A stretch of 10,415 nt of DNA from Candidatus Aminicenantota bacterium (GTDB lineage Bacteria > Acidobacteriota > Aminicenantia > Aminicenantales > UBA4085), in assembly GCA_003154255.1 (NCBI GenBank), contig PMCY01000066.1, positions 6,416 through 16,830 of the forward strand. Reading direction: 5' to 3'. This document shows, piece by piece, positions 2,656 to 10,415 of the stretch. Each line of letters starts with the position of its first letter. Within the stretch, counting starts at the first letter, position 1. The translations under genes were made by a program, and so were the position numbers. The notes under the pieces are model-generated. The model was given only the letters and a program-made list of their open reading frames with translations, searched no databases and had not been told where the DNA came from.

Positions 2656-4455
2656 CTATTCGGAGAGAAGGGCCACGGCGGCGGCGCCGATCCCGCTGTG
2701 GACGCCGATGACGGGCGAGACTTCCATGATGTACCGCGGTCCGAAACCGAGCATGCCGGTCAGGGCCTCTTCATAGGCCCGGGCTCGTGCGGGGTTCTGG
2801 GCATGGACGATGGCGTAGCCCCAGAGCTTGTCCTTTTCGGCGACGCCACGGACGAGTTCCAGGACCTTGGCCATCATGCGCTTACGGGAAAAAGTCTTGG
2901 CCGCATTGTAAGCCTTGCCGTCGGCGCCGATCGAGACGACCGGCTTGATGTTGAGGATTTGCGCGGCCAGGCCCTTCACGGCGCTCACCCGGCCGCCGCG
3001 GATAAAATACTTGAGGGTCAGAACGTCAACGAAAAGGCGGCCCTTGGGGACCCAGGATTCGAGCTGGCCGACGATCTCCTCGTGAGGATGCCCGGCCAGG
3101 GCCAGCTCGGAGGCCCGGTCGACCAGCAGGCCGAGGCCGGCCGAGATCGATTTCGAATCAATCACCGAGATCTTCCGGCCGGTCAGGCTTTGGGCGACTT
3201 TGAGGAAGGTGCCATAGGTGCCGCTCAGGCCCTCCGAAACGGTGATGGCGATGACGGATTCGTAGTGGCTGGAGAGAAAAGACATCGTGTTCTGAAAGGC
3301 CTTGAGGGCCGGGACGGCCGATTTGGGGTGATCCTTGGACGTCCGCAGGAGATCATAGAACCGGTCCGGCAGGATGGTCATCTTGTCCAGGAACTGCTGG
3401 GCGCCGAAGACAATATTCAGGGGGATGAAATGAATCTGCCGGTCGTCCATGATCGGCCGCGGCAGGTCGCAGGAGGAATCGGTCAGGATGGCGATCTTGG
3501 ACTTGGGCGACCAGACAGCTTCGTATTGTTTCTTCATATCGTCGACTTTGATCTGGGCGATGGTTCCGCGGTCCTTCAGCTCGAAGAACAGCCCGTCCGG
3601 CGTATTGGTGTGGACGTGGATACGGACGCGCTCTTCGGAGCCGGCCACGACGGCCGAGTCGCCGTAGCGCTGGACGATATTACGGATGCCCTCGATCTCC
3701 AGGTTCGTCCCGACCAGCAGGGCCTCGGAACAGAAGCGGTTGTGGAGCGACTTGTCCTTGGAGGGAGCCTTGACTTCGTCGGGCGGGATCCAATCGAGTT
3801 CGGTTTTCTGGACCCTTAAAAGCTTGCCGTTCTTGATGAATTGGAGGATGCCTTCCAGAAAATCGACGAATCCCTTGGCCCCGGCGTCGACCACGTTGGC
3901 CTTGGCCAGGACGGCCAGCTTCAAGGGAGTTTCCCGCAGCGATTGCCGGGCGGTGAACAGCGATTCGGCAAACAGCTCCTCGAAGTCGGCGGTATGGGAT
4001 GCCTTTTGGTAGACGGCTTCGGCCCATTCGCGGATGACCGTGATCATCGTCCCCTCGACCGGGTGGACGATGGCCGCATAGGCATGCTGGGCGGCTCGCT
4101 TGACCGACTCGCCGAAAGCCTTGGTCGTCAGCATCCATTCGTGGTGGCCGACCTCCTTGCTCATGCCATGCAGGAACTGGGCGAAGATGAGCCCGGAGTT
4201 GCCTTGGGCCCCATACAAGGCGGCGTTGGCGATCGACTTGAGAGTTTCCTTGATCGAGCGTTTGGCTTCCGCGCCCTCGGCAATGGCCCGGAACGTGGAG
4301 GCCAGATTCGTACCCGTGTCGCCGTCGGGAACGGGGAAGACATTGATGCGGTTCAGATAGGATTGGTCGTGGATGACGGCGTTGCCGCCCGCCAGAAAGG
4401 CGTAATAAAGGCGATTGCCGTTCAGATAGCGGATCTTCAGCTTCATCTTTTTCAT
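2656..4455 (-). CDS. Fused fatty acid kinase (FakA-like DhaL) and DegV/FakB fatty-acid-binding protein
   Basis: A 599-residue cytosolic protein. Residues about 15-205 are a DhaL/DAK2 kinase domain with the metal/ATP motif [14 protein letters not shown] (38-51), GAQGNSG (82-88), [10 protein letters not shown] (131-140) and [14 protein letters not shown] (189-202). Residues about 238-312 match the FakA middle domain, including HVHT (280-283) and VDDMKKQYE (304-312). From about 320 it is a DegV (EDD-fold) lipid-binding domain: LTDSSCDLP (324-332), SEGLSGTY (407-414), a [15 protein letters not shown] stretch, and the conserved GGR...NIKP region. In Firmicutes, FakA phosphorylates fatty acids held by a separate FakB; here kinase and carrier share one chain, and FakA's own C-terminal domain seems replaced by DegV. 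The expected product is acyl-phosphate for phospholipid synthesis (inference). The start is set by CGGAAGAG 7 nt upstream; M4 is a weaker alternative. The gene has its own promoter and leads into the DUF1295 gene. Confidence 0.9.
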
Positions 4456-5337: not shown

Positions 5338-6341
5338 AGCCAGATCTTCGTCGATTTGCGCAGCAAAAGGATGAACAGGGGGATGCCGATGATGCTGGTG
5401 AAAATGCCGACCGGCACCTCGAACGAAGCCAGGCTGCGGGCGATGTCGTCGGCCAGAAGCAGGAACGAAGCGCCCAGCGCGGCCGAGAGCGGGACGACCC
5501 GGCGGTTGTCGGCCCCCACCATCATCCGCACAAGGTGGGGAACGATGAGTCCGATCCAACCGATGATCCCGGCGACGGCCGTGGCCGCGGCCGTGATCAG
5601 GGTGGCCAGGGCGATGACCAGGAATTTCTCTCCGCGCAGATTGACGCCGAGCGAGCGGGCCTCCTCGTCGCTCAGGGAAAGGACATTCAGGCGCCAGCGC
5701 AAAAGCAGCAGGATCGCGACGCCGCCCAGGACGAAAGGCAGCGACACGGCCAGGTCTCTCCAGCCGGGGCGGGCCAGGTTGCCCATGAGCCAGTTGAAGA
5801 GGGCTTGGAGCGAATAGGGACTGGCAAAGAATTCGACCAGGGACAGCAGGGCCGTGAAAAAAGCCGAGACGATCACTCCCGTCAGCAGCAGGGAGACGAT
5901 CGGAGACTCGGACCGGGCGGAGATCGAAAGGACCAGCAGCACGGCGACGATGGCGAAAAGAAAGGCCGAGATCTGCGGCGGAAAAGCCGGGCCCAGGAAG
6001 ACCAGCGAGAGCGAAGCCCCGAATCCGGCGCCGGAGGAGAGGCCCAGGATATATTCGTTGACCAGGGGATTCTTGAAGAGTGCCTGCAGCGAAGCGCCCG
6101 AAACGGACAAGGCCGAGCCCACGGCCAAGGCCAGGATCAGGCGCGGCAGGCGGACGCCGAAAACAATGGCGGAGTACCCTTCGGGCAAGCCGGCCTTCCA
6201 GGCCGGCACGAACGGGGACAATAGAGTCTTGAGAAGGGCAGGGAGGGGAATGCGATAGGTCCCCAGGTAGAGAGAAACAGCGAACAGGACGAGCGGCGAG
6301 ATATAGATCAGCAGCCGGAGCGTTCTCTTTTTATCGGCCAT
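5334..6341 (-). CDS. ABC transporter permease, FecCD/BtuC family
   Basis: A 335-residue polytopic inner-membrane permease; two copies would form the channel with the ATPase dimer. FecCD hallmarks: RLPR (64-67), NPLVNEYILGLSSGAGFGA (91-109), the ATPase-coupling segment LSLSDEEARSLGV (221-233), GWIGLIVPHLVRMMVGADNR (261-280) and the C-terminal VGIFTSIIGIPLFILLLRK (311-329). Hydrophobicity fits about ten helices, normal for BtuC. I chose the ATG at 6341 rather than the far-upstream in-frame ATG at 6533. The extra 64 residues are Arg/Pro/Ser-rich and lie over the binding-protein gene, while 6341 has GGAG 7 nt before it (6349-6352). It overlaps the end of the binding-protein gene by 11 bp and the ATPase start by 4 bp, so all three should be translated from one mRNA. 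Confidence 0.94.
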   Translation of the reverse strand: MADKKRTLRLLIYISPLVLFAVSLYLGTYRIPLPALLKTLLSPFVPAWKAGLPEGYSAIVFGVRLPRLILALAVGSALSVSGASLQALFKNPLVNEYILGLSSGAGFGASLSLVFLGPAFPPQISAFLFAIVAVLLVLSISARSESPIVSLLLTGVIVSAFFTALLSLVEFFASPYSLQALFNWLMGNLARPGWRDLAVSLPFVLGGVAILLLLRWRLNVLSLSDEEARSLGVNLRGEKFLVIALATLITAAATAVAGIIGWIGLIVPHLVRMMVGADNRRVVPLSAALGASFLLLADDIARSLASFEVPVGIFTSIIGIPLFILLLRKSTKIWL

Positions 6342-7398
6342 CGAGCCACTCCGCGCAGCCGATCGATTCGGACAACGCTGCAAAGATCCGGTCGATGCCG
6401 TAGAATTTCTTGAAAACGGCGTCGGCCCGGACTTTCCAATCCGCGGCCGGGAAAAGACCGGGGTGGAATAGTCGGGCCAGGTAGGCCGTCTCGACCAGGA
6501 CTTCGGCCGGGTCCCACCAATTCCAGAAACCAAACGTGTAATGGACGCGGCGGTCCCGCACGGCGGGGACGGTGCTCAGGCGGCCATCGGAAAGGAATAG
6601 GCCGGTTGTCACGGCCCGCCGGCGGGCGGGATAATTCCCATGGACCAGGATGACATCGGGATTCCAGGCCAGGAGTCGTTCGAAATTGACGTTGGCGATG
6701 AGCGTCCCCAGAAACGAGGGCAGGAGATTTTCGGCGACGTTCGTCCCGCCCGCGGCATCGACCGGTTCATAGTGGACGGGGGTGCGCGTCGGAGAACCCC
6801 AGAACGCCAGATAGACGCGAGGCCGGGGTTCGGATGAAGCCTGAACGGTTCTGCGGATCGCTTCGATCTCGGCCCTGAAATAGGCGATCAGCTCGGCGGC
6901 CCGTTCGGACCGGCCGAGAATGGCGCCCAGGAGGCTGATCTCTTCCAGGAGGCGGTCGTAGCGGCCTTGGGAGGCGAGCGCGATCGTGGGAATCCCGGTT
7001 TTCGATTGGAGGGCTTCGACCACCGATTTATCTTCAGGCCCCCCGAAAATCGCCTCCGGCGCGAGGCGAAGGACAAGCTCCATATTCACGTTGTAGTCGG
7101 CCATGGATACGAGAGGCAGGCTGTCCGAGCCGGGGGCGATGATTCTGAACAGGGGGTCTTCCGCCCTCAGAAAATGATCGATCCCGACGAGCCGGCCGGC
7201 GGCGCCGAGGGCAACGATGATGCGGCTGATCTCGGGCTGGAGGGAAAGGACGCGCTCAAGATGGGAGGGCAGCGCTACGGTTCGGCCGAGGTTGTCGACG
7301 ATCGTACGCCTGTCTTGGATCTCTCCCGCCGCCGCGGCGCTCCCGCAGAGGACTAACCCGATAAACAGCGCGGCGGATTGAATAACGAATTTTCGCAT
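6331..7398 (-). CDS. Periplasmic substrate-binding protein of iron-complex/corrinoid importer (BtuF/FecB-like)
   Basis: A 355-residue exported binding protein of the type III fold used for siderophores, haem and cobalamin. It has a signal peptide (MRK, hydrophobic core, AAAA near 21-24). The cysteine in GLVLC (14-18) does not make a proper lipobox, so it is probably soluble periplasmic rather than a lipoprotein. The mature part begins with the family pattern TIVDNLGRTVALP (32-44), followed by RVLSLQPEISRIIVALG (49-65) and VGID (71-74). Later come LAPEAIFGG (112-120), PDVILVHG (247-254) and an aromatic segment FGFWNWWDP (289-297). The ligand cannot be assigned; no cobalamin riboswitch fits in the short upstream gap. 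I chose 7398 over an in-frame ATG at 7434 because the signal peptide then starts correctly and the -10 box falls just upstream. It is the first gene of the operon. Confidence 0.9.
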   Translation of the reverse strand: MRKFVIQSAALFIGLVLCGSAAAAGEIQDRRTIVDNLGRTVALPSHLERVLSLQPEISRIIVALGAAGRLVGIDHFLRAEDPLFRIIAPGSDSLPLVSMADYNVNMELVLRLAPEAIFGGPEDKSVVEALQSKTGIPTIALASQGRYDRLLEEISLLGAILGRSERAAELIAYFRAEIEAIRRTVQASSEPRPRVYLAFWGSPTRTPVHYEPVDAAGGTNVAENLLPSFLGTLIANVNFERLLAWNPDVILVHGNYPARRRAVTTGLFLSDGRLSTVPAVRDRRVHYTFGFWNWWDPAEVLVETAYLARLFHPGLFPAADWKVRADAVFKKFYGIDRIFAALSESIGCAEWLDGR

Positions 7399-7411
7399 GG
7401 CCAAGGCGCTT

Positions 7412-7417
7412 ATTATA
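7412..7417 (-). promoter_or_regulatory. -10 box of the importer operon, implying a near-leaderless mRNA
   Basis: TATAAT on the minus strand, 13 bp upstream of the binding-protein ATG at 7398. Transcription would start near 7405, leaving a leader of roughly 7 nt with no Shine-Dalgarno. The expected -35 position (7435-7440) reads TCCCGC, a poor match, so an activator may be needed. Confidence 0.45.
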
Positions 7418-7466
7418 ACAGAGTCCAAGGGCAAGCGGGACCGGCATCGCCCCGGGTCGGGCGCTA

Positions 7467-7490: not shown

Positions 7491-9323
7491 ATGCCGAAGC
7501 GCCAGGCCATCCTTCTTATCGGTCCCACGGGGGCGGGGAAGTCCCCTCTCGGGGAATACCTGGAACATACCGGCTTCGGCGGGCGACGCTGTTTCCATTT
7601 CGATTTCGGCACTGAGCTTCGCGCCGCTGCCACCCCCTTACGCACCGCATTCGACGATGACGATGCCCTGAGCCCGACCGACCTCGACATCATCCGGCGC
7701 GCTCTCGAAGCCGGGACACTGCTCGAAGATGCGGAATTTCCCATCGCTCTTCGAATTTTCCGACGGTTCGTTCATAGGAAAGGCCTCGGTCCGAACGATT
7801 GGATCGTCCTCAACGGCCTGCCCCGTCATGCCGGGCAAGCCTTAGGATTGGAAACCGAGGTCGATGTCAGCTTGGTGGCCGTCCTGCAGACGGCGGCCGA
7901 AGTCGTCCGTGAACGGATCCGGAGCAACGCCGCGGGAGACCGCACCGGCCGTTTTGACGACGAACCGGCCGCGATCGAAGCCAAATTGAAGATCTTCGAA
8001 GGCCGGACCCGCCCGCTCATCGAATATTATTCCTCAAGGGGCGCGGCCGTGATCCGTGTGGACGTCGGGGCGGAAACGACGGCGGCCGAAATGGCCGGGC
8101 GCCTGGCTGCGGCCGGGGCGCCGGGCGATGCGCCGGGTTCCCGGCGGGCCTTGAACATCGTCTCCCTGGCCGTTTTTCTGGCCTCCTCGACCTGGTTCAC
8201 GGGAACGGCGGCGGGGCCTTTTCTTAAAACTTTATGGGGTCTGGGACCGGGCGGAGCGGCCTGGCTGACGACGGCCGTCCAGCTCGGATTCATCGCCGGA
8301 ACGCTGTCCTATGCGCTTCTCAACGTCGCTGACACTTTTTCCTCCCGCCGCGTCTTCGCCCTTTCCGCGCTTGCCGGAGCCTTGTTCAACGCCGCCTTCG
8401 CCTGGCCCGGCAACGCCTATCCGGCCGCCCTGGCCTTCCGCTTCCTGACCGGGGTATCCCTGGCCGGCGTCTATCCGGTGGGGATGAAAATCGTCGCCCA
8501 GTGGCACCGCGGCCCCTTGGGCCGGCCCCTGTCCCGCCTCATCGCCGCCCTGACCCTGGGCTCGGCGGCGCCTTTCCTGCTCATGGCCCTGGGCGGCCGC
8601 CTCGATCCGCATATTCTCCTGGCAGCAGCGTCCGGGTTGGCGATCGGGGGGGCGGCCCTGGTCGCGTACGGACTCGATGACGGACCCTTCCGGCTGGCGC
8701 CCGCCCGGTTCGATTGGAGGGCCGCCGGCCGGGTTTTCGCCAAACGGGGCTTCCGGCTGCAGGCTTTGGGATATTTCGGCCATATGTGGGAGCTCTACGC
8801 CTTCTGGTCGCTCAGCGGATCTTTCCTGGCCGCTGCTTTGGCCGGCACGGCTTTGGCGGGGGAGCGGACCGTGGCCGGATTCGTCTTCCTGATCTTCCTG
8901 GCCGGAGTCGGAGGCTGCCTGGCCGGCGGCGCCGCTTCCCGCCGTCGGGGCGAAAAAAGCGTGGCCCTCGCCGCATTGGCCGCGTCCTCGATCTGCTGCG
9001 CCTTCTCTCCCATTTTTTTCGGCGTTCCGGCCTGGGCGCTCATTCCGTTCCTACTGGTCTGGGGGGCGGCGGTCATCGCCGACTCGCCGCAGTTCTCCGG
9101 ACTGGCCGCCCGATTCTGCGAAGAGGAATATATGGGGACCGCCCTGACGTTGCAGAACGGAATCGGTTTCGCGATCACGGTCTCCGCCATCCAGATCACG
9201 GCCGGGGCGGCGCCGCTTCTGGGCTGGCGCTGGGTCTTTCTCCTCCTTCTCCCCGGCCCCGTCCTGGGCGGCCTGGCGGCACGGCGGCTCCCCGGCCGGG
9301 GATCGGCGCCTCCTCCCGTTTGA
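7491..9323 (+). CDS. Adenylate-kinase-like domain fused to a 12-helix major facilitator transporter
   Basis: A 610-residue protein in one open frame. Residues 5-205 resemble adenylate/nucleoside monophosphate kinases: P-loop GPTGAGKS (11-18), HFDFGTELR (36-44; R44 fits the NMP-binding Arg), NGLPR (108-112, the GFPR motif), RERIRSN (140-146), RFDD (154-157) and TRPLIEYY (173-180). The LID insert is very short, and the Arg following RFDD in typical enzymes appears as K165. Residues 221-598 are an MFS transporter with about 12 helices, including FRFLTGVSLAGVYPVGMK (316-333), GYFGHMWELYAFW (427-439) and DSPQFSGLAARF (531-542). The linker is 206-220. MFS proteins place the N-terminus in the cytosol, so the kinase would have access to ATP. 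A separate MFS start at the TTG for L221 (8151) is possible, though it has no clear ribosome binding site. The transport substrate is unknown; coupling of uptake to phosphorylation is inference. The ATG at 7491 has only GGGA upstream. Confidence 0.88.
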   Translation: MPKRQAILLIGPTGAGKSPLGEYLEHTGFGGRRCFHFDFGTELRAAATPLRTAFDDDDALSPTDLDIIRRALEAGTLLEDAEFPIALRIFRRFVHRKGLGPNDWIVLNGLPRHAGQALGLETEVDVSLVAVLQTAAEVVRERIRSNAAGDRTGRFDDEPAAIEAKLKIFEGRTRPLIEYYSSRGAAVIRVDVGAETTAAEMAGRLAAAGAPGDAPGSRRALNIVSLAVFLASSTWFTGTAAGPFLKTLWGLGPGGAAWLTTAVQLGFIAGTLSYALLNVADTFSSRRVFALSALAGALFNAAFAWPGNAYPAALAFRFLTGVSLAGVYPVGMKIVAQWHRGPLGRPLSRLIAALTLGSAAPFLLMALGGRLDPHILLAAASGLAIGGAALVAYGLDDGPFRLAPARFDWRAAGRVFAKRGFRLQALGYFGHMWELYAFWSLSGSFLAAALAGTALAGERTVAGFVFLIFLAGVGGCLAGGAASRRRGEKSVALAALAASSICCAFSPIFFGVPAWALIPFLLVWGAAVIADSPQFSGLAARFCEEEYMGTALTLQNGIGFAITVSAIQITAGAAPLLGWRWVFLLLLPGPVLGGLAARRLPGRGSAPPPV

Positions 9324-9381: not shown

Positions 9382-10415
9382 ATGGATATCCACGATCTCG
9401 ATCCGATCTTCAAGCCCCAGCGCATCGCCCTCGTCGGGGTGAGCCCCAATCCCAACAGCGTCGGGGGCAAGATTCTGGCCAACCTGGTCGGAGGGGGATT
9501 TCGCGGCGTCGTCTACCCGGTCAACCCCTCGGTCGAAGCGGTCATGGGGATTCCCTGTTTTCCATCCGTAGGCACCCTGCCCCGCACCCCCGATCTTGGC
9601 ATTCTCTGCGCCGCCGCCGTTCAAATCCCCGGCCTTGTGGCCCAATGCGGCGAGGCCGGCGTCCGCGGGCTCATCGTAGTGTCCTCCGGCTTCCAGGAGA
9701 CCGGCGAAGTAGGCCGTCTCCTCGAAGAACAAGTCTGCCTCGAAACGGCTCGATTTCCCTCGATGCGTCTGATCGGGCCAAACTGCTTGGGGATCATCGT
9801 GCCCGGCCAGCAGCTCAACGCCAGCTTCGCCGGGGCCATGCCCAAGGCCGGCCAAGTCGCATTCATCTCCCAATCCGGCGCCCTCTGCACCTCCGTCTTG
9901 GATTGGGCGCTCCAGGAGAAAGTGGGATTCTCCCATTTCATTTCCATCGGCAACGCCATCGATGTCGGCTTTGCCGATCTGATCGATTACCTGGGTGAGG
10001 ACGAGCAGACCAAATCCATCCTTTTGTATATCGAATCGATCCGCGAAGCCCGCCGGTTCATGACTGCGGCCCGCGCCTTCGCCCGGACCAAGCCCATCAT
10101 CGCCTATAAGGCCGGCCGTTTTCCCGAATCGGCCGCGGCCGCGGCGTCTCATACCGGGGCCTTGGCCGCGGAAGACGCCATCTACGACGCCGCCTTCCGC
10201 CGGGCCGGAGTAGCCCGGGTTTTCGATTTTGGCGAGATTTTCGACGTGGCCGAACTGCTCGGCAGGAAGAAGGTCCCTCGGGGAGACCGGCTGGGAATTC
10301 TGACCAACGCCGGGGGGCCGGGAGTCATGGCCGTCGACGCCCTGGTCGCCGCGGACGGGAAGCCGGCCCGCCTCTCGGAGGAGACGATGGCCCGGCTCAA
10401 CGAGACGCTTCCGCC
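9382..10415 (+). CDS. Acyl-CoA synthetase (ADP/NDP-forming), CoA-binding alpha part (C-terminus beyond window)
   Basis: The first 344 codons of an acetate--CoA ligase (ADP-forming) type enzyme, which makes ATP from ADP, phosphate and acetyl- or another acyl-CoA in fermentation; the reverse direction activates acids. Residues 7-130 are the CoA-binding Rossmann domain (RIALVGVSPNPNSVGG 14-29, YPVNP 45-49). IGPNCLGI (131-138) and FISQSGAL (161-168) mark the succinyl-CoA-ligase-like domain. The phosphorylated histidine of the family is H257 in SHTGAL, and E218 in YIESI is at the place of the Glu that stabilises it; both numbers agree with what I recall for archaeal ACD alpha subunits. TNAGGPGV (309-316) opens the third subdomain. 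Whether a beta (ATP-grasp) part is fused cannot be seen, so the product could be about 460 or 700 residues. Fusion with a GNAT domain (protein acetyltransferase Pat) is a less likely alternative. A GGAG lies 10 nt before the ATG. Confidence 0.93.
   Translation, partial: MDIHDLDPIFKPQRIALVGVSPNPNSVGGKILANLVGGGFRGVVYPVNPSVEAVMGIPCFPSVGTLPRTPDLGILCAAAVQIPGLVAQCGEAGVRGLIVVSSGFQETGEVGRLLEEQVCLETARFPSMRLIGPNCLGIIVPGQQLNASFAGAMPKAGQVAFISQSGALCTSVLDWALQEKVGFSHFISIGNAIDVGFADLIDYLGEDEQTKSILLYIESIREARRFMTAARAFARTKPIIAYKAGRFPESAAAAASHTGALAAEDAIYDAAFRRAGVARVFDFGEIFDVAELLGRKKVPRGDRLGILTNAGGPGVMAVDALVAADGKPARLSEETMARLNETLP

Follow-up and report, generated by a model that had tools for sequence, protein, structure and literature searches.

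An MFS carrier with an N-terminal kinase-like domain, conserved in an Aminicenantes lineage

A gene of Candidatus Aminicenantota bacterium encodes, in one chain, a divergent nucleoside-monophosphate-kinase-like domain (K) followed by an MFS carrier (M) and, as judged from its sequence and that of its relatives, this fusion is genuine and conserved. The gene lies in the window, the whole stretch of 10,415 nucleotides analyzed here, where an uninterrupted frame of 610 codons runs from ATG to TGA at 7491..9323 of the forward strand and specifies 610 residues. A preliminary description had read this as a single stop-free frame and the frame was found intact. The motifs named there were all recovered in place: GPTGAGKS (residues 11-18), FGTELR (39-44), NGLPR (108-112), RFDD (154-157) and PLIEYY (175-180). 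Its division into a kinase and a carrier half also held when both parts were scored separately against Pfam, residues 1-220 matching ADK (PF00406; E 8.6e-9; 36.1 bits, above the gathering score of 26.8) and residues 221-610 matching MFS_1 (PF07690; E 2.5e-14; 53.4 bits, above the threshold of 33.4). Translation from an in-frame TTG at 8151..8153 (+), proposed as an alternative start, is without sequence support.

The same arrangement recurs in other proteins. Residues 1-212 were searched against proteins about 336-1067 residues long, with scoring of the 7996 candidates that had most words in common. Of the 31 proteins matched, 11 carry K followed by the same M: the window protein's cluster, P0002, and ten others. 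The latter share order and junction with the window chain at 64-81% identity; one of them, P0004, whose source label is Candidatus Aminicenantales, is cut short. The source annotation of some fused chains reads 'MFS family permease/adenylate kinase family enzyme'. These proteins bear directly on the suspicion that a lost stop or an assembly error at the linker merged two genes. The window genome (3.48 Mb) is indeed fragmented, with 377 contigs and 76% completeness, and an NN gap sits just past the window end. The same junction in ten other proteins nevertheless excludes chance or a missed stop, and six sequences are grouped in cluster P0002, for which a contig of 66,879 bases is given, longer than that of 22,485 bases here; we therefore treat the artefact as refuted and grant it practically no probability. 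Among the matches listed, 13 relatives of M exceed 65% identity and ten of these have both halves. In P0153, on a contig of 1,691 bases and probably cut, the C-terminal part of K is in frame with M; P0154 and P0155 lie on contigs below 2 kb and P0154 shows only a short end of K. Relatives that begin at a start of their own without similarity to K appear from about 60% identity downwards (P0157, P0162 and P0163).

The preliminary description had also asked how many genomes keep the fusion. As a single match it is present in one of 12 genomes of the family, one of 94 of the order and one of 142 of the class, the sole species-level genome of these 142 being the window's own. In G009, K and M stand at the ends of two contigs, C55 and C90, and could represent one locus broken between them. 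The variable loop of K in G009 (L110:1-275, reverse strand) carries an in-frame insertion of a dispersed repeat matching in both orientations; an 83-base piece of it has 31 matches in G009, itself included, two in G006 and none in the window genome. So far, the fusion is thus known from one lineage that is poorly sampled by these genomes. In phylogenetic trees, the fused M halves form one clade (SH-aLRT 100; 12 rows, P0154 being counted with its short K end only) and so do the fused K halves (SH-aLRT 98; 11 rows). The fused K clade falls inside a group of 17 rows (93) with six unfused ones, among them those of the same genus, G001 and G002. Both trees are quick ones with SH-aLRT values only, built in order of similarity from 70 of the 107 unfused listed rows for M and from 60 of the 120 free-standing listed rows for K; P0004 and P0155, too short in coverage, are absent from the M tree.

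K occupies residues 1-207 (7491..8111, forward strand, as for all features of the fusion gene) and has retained the hallmarks of a phosphate-handling site. In a 41-row alignment of K (A4), invariant positions include G11, P12, T13, G16 and K17 of the P-loop GPTGAGKS (7521..7544), H36, F37, D38, F39, G40 and R44 of HFDFGTELR (residues 36-44; 7596..7622), N108 of NGLPRH (residues 108-113; 7812..7829) and D150, R151, R154, D156 and D157 of GDRTGRFDD (residues 149-157; 7935..7961), a short LID with conserved arginine and aspartate. Among 40 free-standing K proteins, 45 residues are near-invariant and 42 of them are identical in all 11 fusions, including G11, P12, G14, G16 and K17 of the P-loop, R44, R112, Q116, R142, R154, D156 and D157. 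Structure comparison with the full chain returned MFS chains and K was hence folded and searched alone; the K-only model and the structure search give an NMP-kinase fold with confidence.

With the adenylate kinase and UMP-CMP kinase family (PF00406), K shares the fold, the P-loop and the conserved acceptor-side arginines and glutamine, and its short LID is like that of UMP-CMP kinases. It differs from adenylate kinase in having HFDFG instead of an ISTGD-type motif and asparagine instead of aspartate before G-PR, and its best scores remain far below the NCBIfam cut-offs for that enzyme (44.7 bits versus 168 for TIGR01351; 42.9 versus 187 for NF001381). Aligned with three canonical Adk proteins, that of its own genome and two others of the family, K has F39 and N108 where these have threonine and aspartate. 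We take these two positions, the threonine of STGD and the aspartate of DG-PR, to be AMP and Mg contacts in canonical Adk, and given the substitutions AMP may possibly not be the acceptor of K. Identification of K with the housekeeping adenylate kinase was rejected: all 12 genomes of the family have an ADK match elsewhere at E 5.6e-40 or better (three of these had their sequences compared directly), so K is an extra enzyme beside canonical Adk. A search for relatives of K yielded 1435 matches with E values up to 0.001, 120 of them listed and the tail of which may include ordinary adenylate kinases; in the plasmid and phage collections, K has no match at E 1e-5.

M covers residues 217-610 (8139..9320) and is joined to K by a linker at about residues 208-216 (8112..8138). 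A linker of 15 residues had been announced; the models put it nearer 7-9, since the last helix of K runs to residue 209, or to 207 when K is modelled alone, and the first membrane helix sets in at 217. AlphaFold2 modelled the whole chain from a 68-row alignment with a mean pLDDT of 90.3 and a pTM of 0.80. Between ten fused chains (P0004 excluded), mean pairwise identity drops to 53% at residues 205-220, versus 81% (residues 1-46) and 68% (61-200) in K and 74-78% in M. The MFS fold predicted for M comprises 12 membrane helices with the N-terminus inside, in agreement with the 12-helix domain claimed earlier; a simple hydropathy scan over 19 residues at a time, with a threshold of 1.25, gives 11 peaks. 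With membrane limits set by hand from the model, the loops carry 18 lysines and arginines on the predicted cytosolic side and two outside. Given this charge bias, a cytosolic location is expected for the N-terminus and for K, as had been proposed. Sequence and model together thus argue for a real single-chain fusion with a complete MFS carrier and a kinase-like domain whose predicted location is the cytosol.

The cargo of M is probably an organic anion. Among NCBIfam carrier families, the window M (P0001) matches only TIGR00898, for cation transport, at 21.6 against a cut-off of 550.75. Its relative P0161 has weak matches to aromatic-acid and galactonate carriers (TIGR00895, 48.6 versus 418.55), the unfused M of G005 has no match to an NCBIfam carrier family, and comparison with solved structures by sequence gave no match at E 0.1. 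These data bear on the idea that K phosphorylates the cargo leaving the carrier and thereby traps it. Such vectorial phosphorylation would suit the predicted cytosolic position of K close to the carrier and its conserved acceptor-side arginines. PnuC with the NadR kinase likewise combines an uptake protein with a cargo-acting kinase; PnuC is not an MFS carrier and NadR is a different kinase from K. Against it stand the family hints for M, which, weak as they are, do not point to nucleosides, and the common occurrence of M without K and of K without M; we consider it distinctly unlikely. Alternatively, K might bind ATP or AMP and regulate M as a nucleotide-sensing gate, catalysis being dispensable. 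The two departures from canonical Adk, at acceptor and Mg positions, would fit a sensor, and control by energy state would suit a carrier of an energy substrate. We give this gate little credence in view of the strict conservation of the P-loop and the phosphate-side arginine set, and of the relatives of K, which are mostly free-standing proteins with no carrier to gate.

The genes around the fusion may point to another role. Downstream, at 9382..10415 (+), lies the start of a gene for an ADP-forming acyl-CoA-synthetase-like protein, and past the NN gap the contig goes on with ATP-grasp and GNAT domains, the parts of this split gene being scanned separately. Since the downstream-gene query spans the gap, it is out of frame after about residue 345, and short matches beyond that point were not used. 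The divergent neighbor, at 6331..7434 (-), encodes the periplasmic substrate-binding protein of a FecCD-type ABC importer. K also stands beside FecCD-type importer genes, with no M detected, in G001, G002, G004, G006, G008 and G010, and directly before the counterpart of this downstream acyl-CoA-synthetase gene in G002, G008 and G010, the full-length relative in G002 having the GNAT domain. An SHTG motif, whose histidine we take to be the catalytic one, is present in the downstream gene of the window, G002 and G008. An acyl-CoA synthetase followed by GNAT is the layout given for type I Pat in a published account, which also describes the acyl-CoA-synthetase domain of class I and II Pat as devoid of the catalytic histidine (PMC8556138). 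Near the unfused M of G005, an AMP-binding acyl-CoA synthetase is encoded two genes off, and a gene belonging to that cluster is present in G007 as well. Acyl-CoA genes are near M in three and absent in five of eight plasmid regions (of 71 records, taken from the 20 listed). In other genera, neighbors of K, with one representative per gene cluster, show no common theme: they include peptidase C69, GH42 and GFO/IDH in g10 and ADH, RNase H-like, DUF1015 and acyl-CoA dehydrogenase in g15. The gene caller was a crude one, used only for finding shared neighbors. Two other proteins of these loci deserve mention. A 434-residue protein resembling an outer-membrane barrel by eye (L171:4817-6121, forward strand), for which neither Pfam nor NCBIfam gave a match, is encoded repeatedly in genomes of the family, downstream either of K or of the acyl-CoA-synthetase gene. 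Within the window, DAK2 and DegV domains are found in one chain at 2656-4455 (-), presumably akin to a union of FakA and FakB, the subunits of fatty-acid kinase.

The trees, together with the order of genes, lead us to infer that the fusion arose once in an Aminicenantes lineage. In the simplest account, M would have entered between K and the acyl-CoA-synthetase gene, at a place where K already stood beside these and the ABC-importer genes, and would then have joined K. An older K-M neighborhood with separate losses is also allowed by two remnants. In G011, a piece of M (L111:5236-5675, reverse strand; residues 6-84 and 323-388) lies beside an importer gene with no match to K; in G007, a piece of K (residues 73-139) lies just upstream of an intact, separate M.

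The explanation that we favor, tentatively and at somewhat less than even likelihood, is that of a cytosolic kinase-like enzyme tethered to its carrier, which would link import to the turnover of nucleotides or anions nearby. K, held by a short linker at the start of M, would be catalytically competent and would use ATP to phosphorylate an anionic acceptor at the cytosolic mouth of the carrier, so that uptake of the cargo would be coupled to nucleotide or anion turnover there. In its preferred form, the imported acid would be activated to a CoA ester with release of AMP, and K would clear this AMP (AMP + ATP -> 2 ADP). Competence is suggested by the near-invariant residues kept in the fusions and by the confidently modelled fold, and the acid theme by the acyl-CoA-synthetase gene adjoining K in three genomes, by the genes of G005 and G007 and by the matches of P0161. 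Two points argue that the pairing is meaningful: within the fused clade both halves are conserved, and a second fusion, described below, has a different MFS carrier. Several observations count against this reading: the independent distribution of K and M, the joining of K to unrelated soluble enzymes, F39 and N108, the weak carrier-family matches, the five plasmid regions without acyl-CoA genes and the lack of a common theme among neighbors of K.

The distribution of both halves was followed in the 94 genomes of the order: eight have both, 27 only K, 10 only M and 49 neither (Fisher p=0.59, a guide only as the genomes are related and not independent). Remnants (M in G011, K in G007) were scored as absent, as were the matches judged weak or short in G066, G079 (K), G092, G017, G023, G028 and G077; G009, with both halves at contig ends, and G042, with the N-terminal part of K only, were scored as present. 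Within the family of 12, K occurs without M in six genomes and M without intact K in three. K and M thus occur independently across the order, which counts against a tight coupling. The partners of K are also varied. Among the 31 K-bearing proteins, 14 have an MFS domain (11 of them in the window's clade), five a Sua5-type domain, three a GrpB domain and nine others, four of the latter being without a second Pfam domain and the partners including an aminotransferase. In P0027 and P0029-P0032, K is combined with a Sua5-type threonylcarbamoyl-AMP synthase, and the K of these five proteins form one clade; in P0013, P0016 and P0022, a GrpB-like domain precedes K and these K again form one clade.

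Independent distribution and many partners are what one would expect if neighboring genes had simply been joined and the chain tolerated, K and M working independently of each other; the remnants of G007 and G011, where one half has decayed beside an intact M or in an importer locus without K, agree with such a passenger fusion. Yet 11 chains, with identities as low as 64%, have kept the join together with both halves, and an MFS carrier was joined to K at least two times in opposite orders. We hold this account to be a serious one, if rather unlikely. The opposite order is found in P0015, P0018 and P0023, in all of which K is C-terminal. The K of these three proteins belongs to the same family as that of the window fusion but to another clade, which is its own (99), and the MFS domain of P0015, unlike M, is similar to YbfB and to L-lactate and galactonate carriers, without reaching any of the curated NCBIfam cut-offs. 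A bolder proposal would make the window protein an MFS-based group translocator in a single chain, whose N-terminal kinase would phosphorylate the emerging cargo and render secondary transport irreversible, the opposite-order fusions being a second invention of that device; its chances are, in our opinion, slim.

The preliminary description knew of no described system of this form. This holds for the join of K with an MFS carrier: none was described in a full-text literature search judged on titles and abstract openings. It does not extend to MFS-enzyme fusions in general. The lysophospholipid transporter LplT and the acyltransferase Aas are encoded by adjacent genes in many bacteria and are apparently fused into a single open reading frame in some (PMC11416262). 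As in the K-M protein, an MFS carrier is combined there with an enzyme on the cytosolic side, in one open reading frame whose halves are separate in relatives; the enzyme, in contrast, is an acyltransferase whose modification of the cargo is established, where the K-M protein has an NMP-kinase-like domain at its N-terminus. LplT-Aas is a precedent for an MFS carrier joined to a cargo-modifying enzyme and lends some support to vectorial phosphorylation. The fusion of an MFS carrier with a cytosolic enzyme is thus not itself new, and the K-MFS join is undescribed in the literature searched.

The family of K draws notice in its own right, as a free-standing kinase-like family that invariant HFDFG and NGLPRH motifs distinguish from adenylate kinase. 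Because K and an MFS carrier were joined twice independently, once in each order, and because a cytosolic K is predicted for the join that was modelled, the pairing merits experimental study, and a kinase placed on a secondary carrier would offer a direct test of whether chemistry in the same chain makes transport one-way. Should K prove a tolerated passenger, the fusion would clearly exemplify the merger of two genes, at a locus from which either half has also disappeared on its own.
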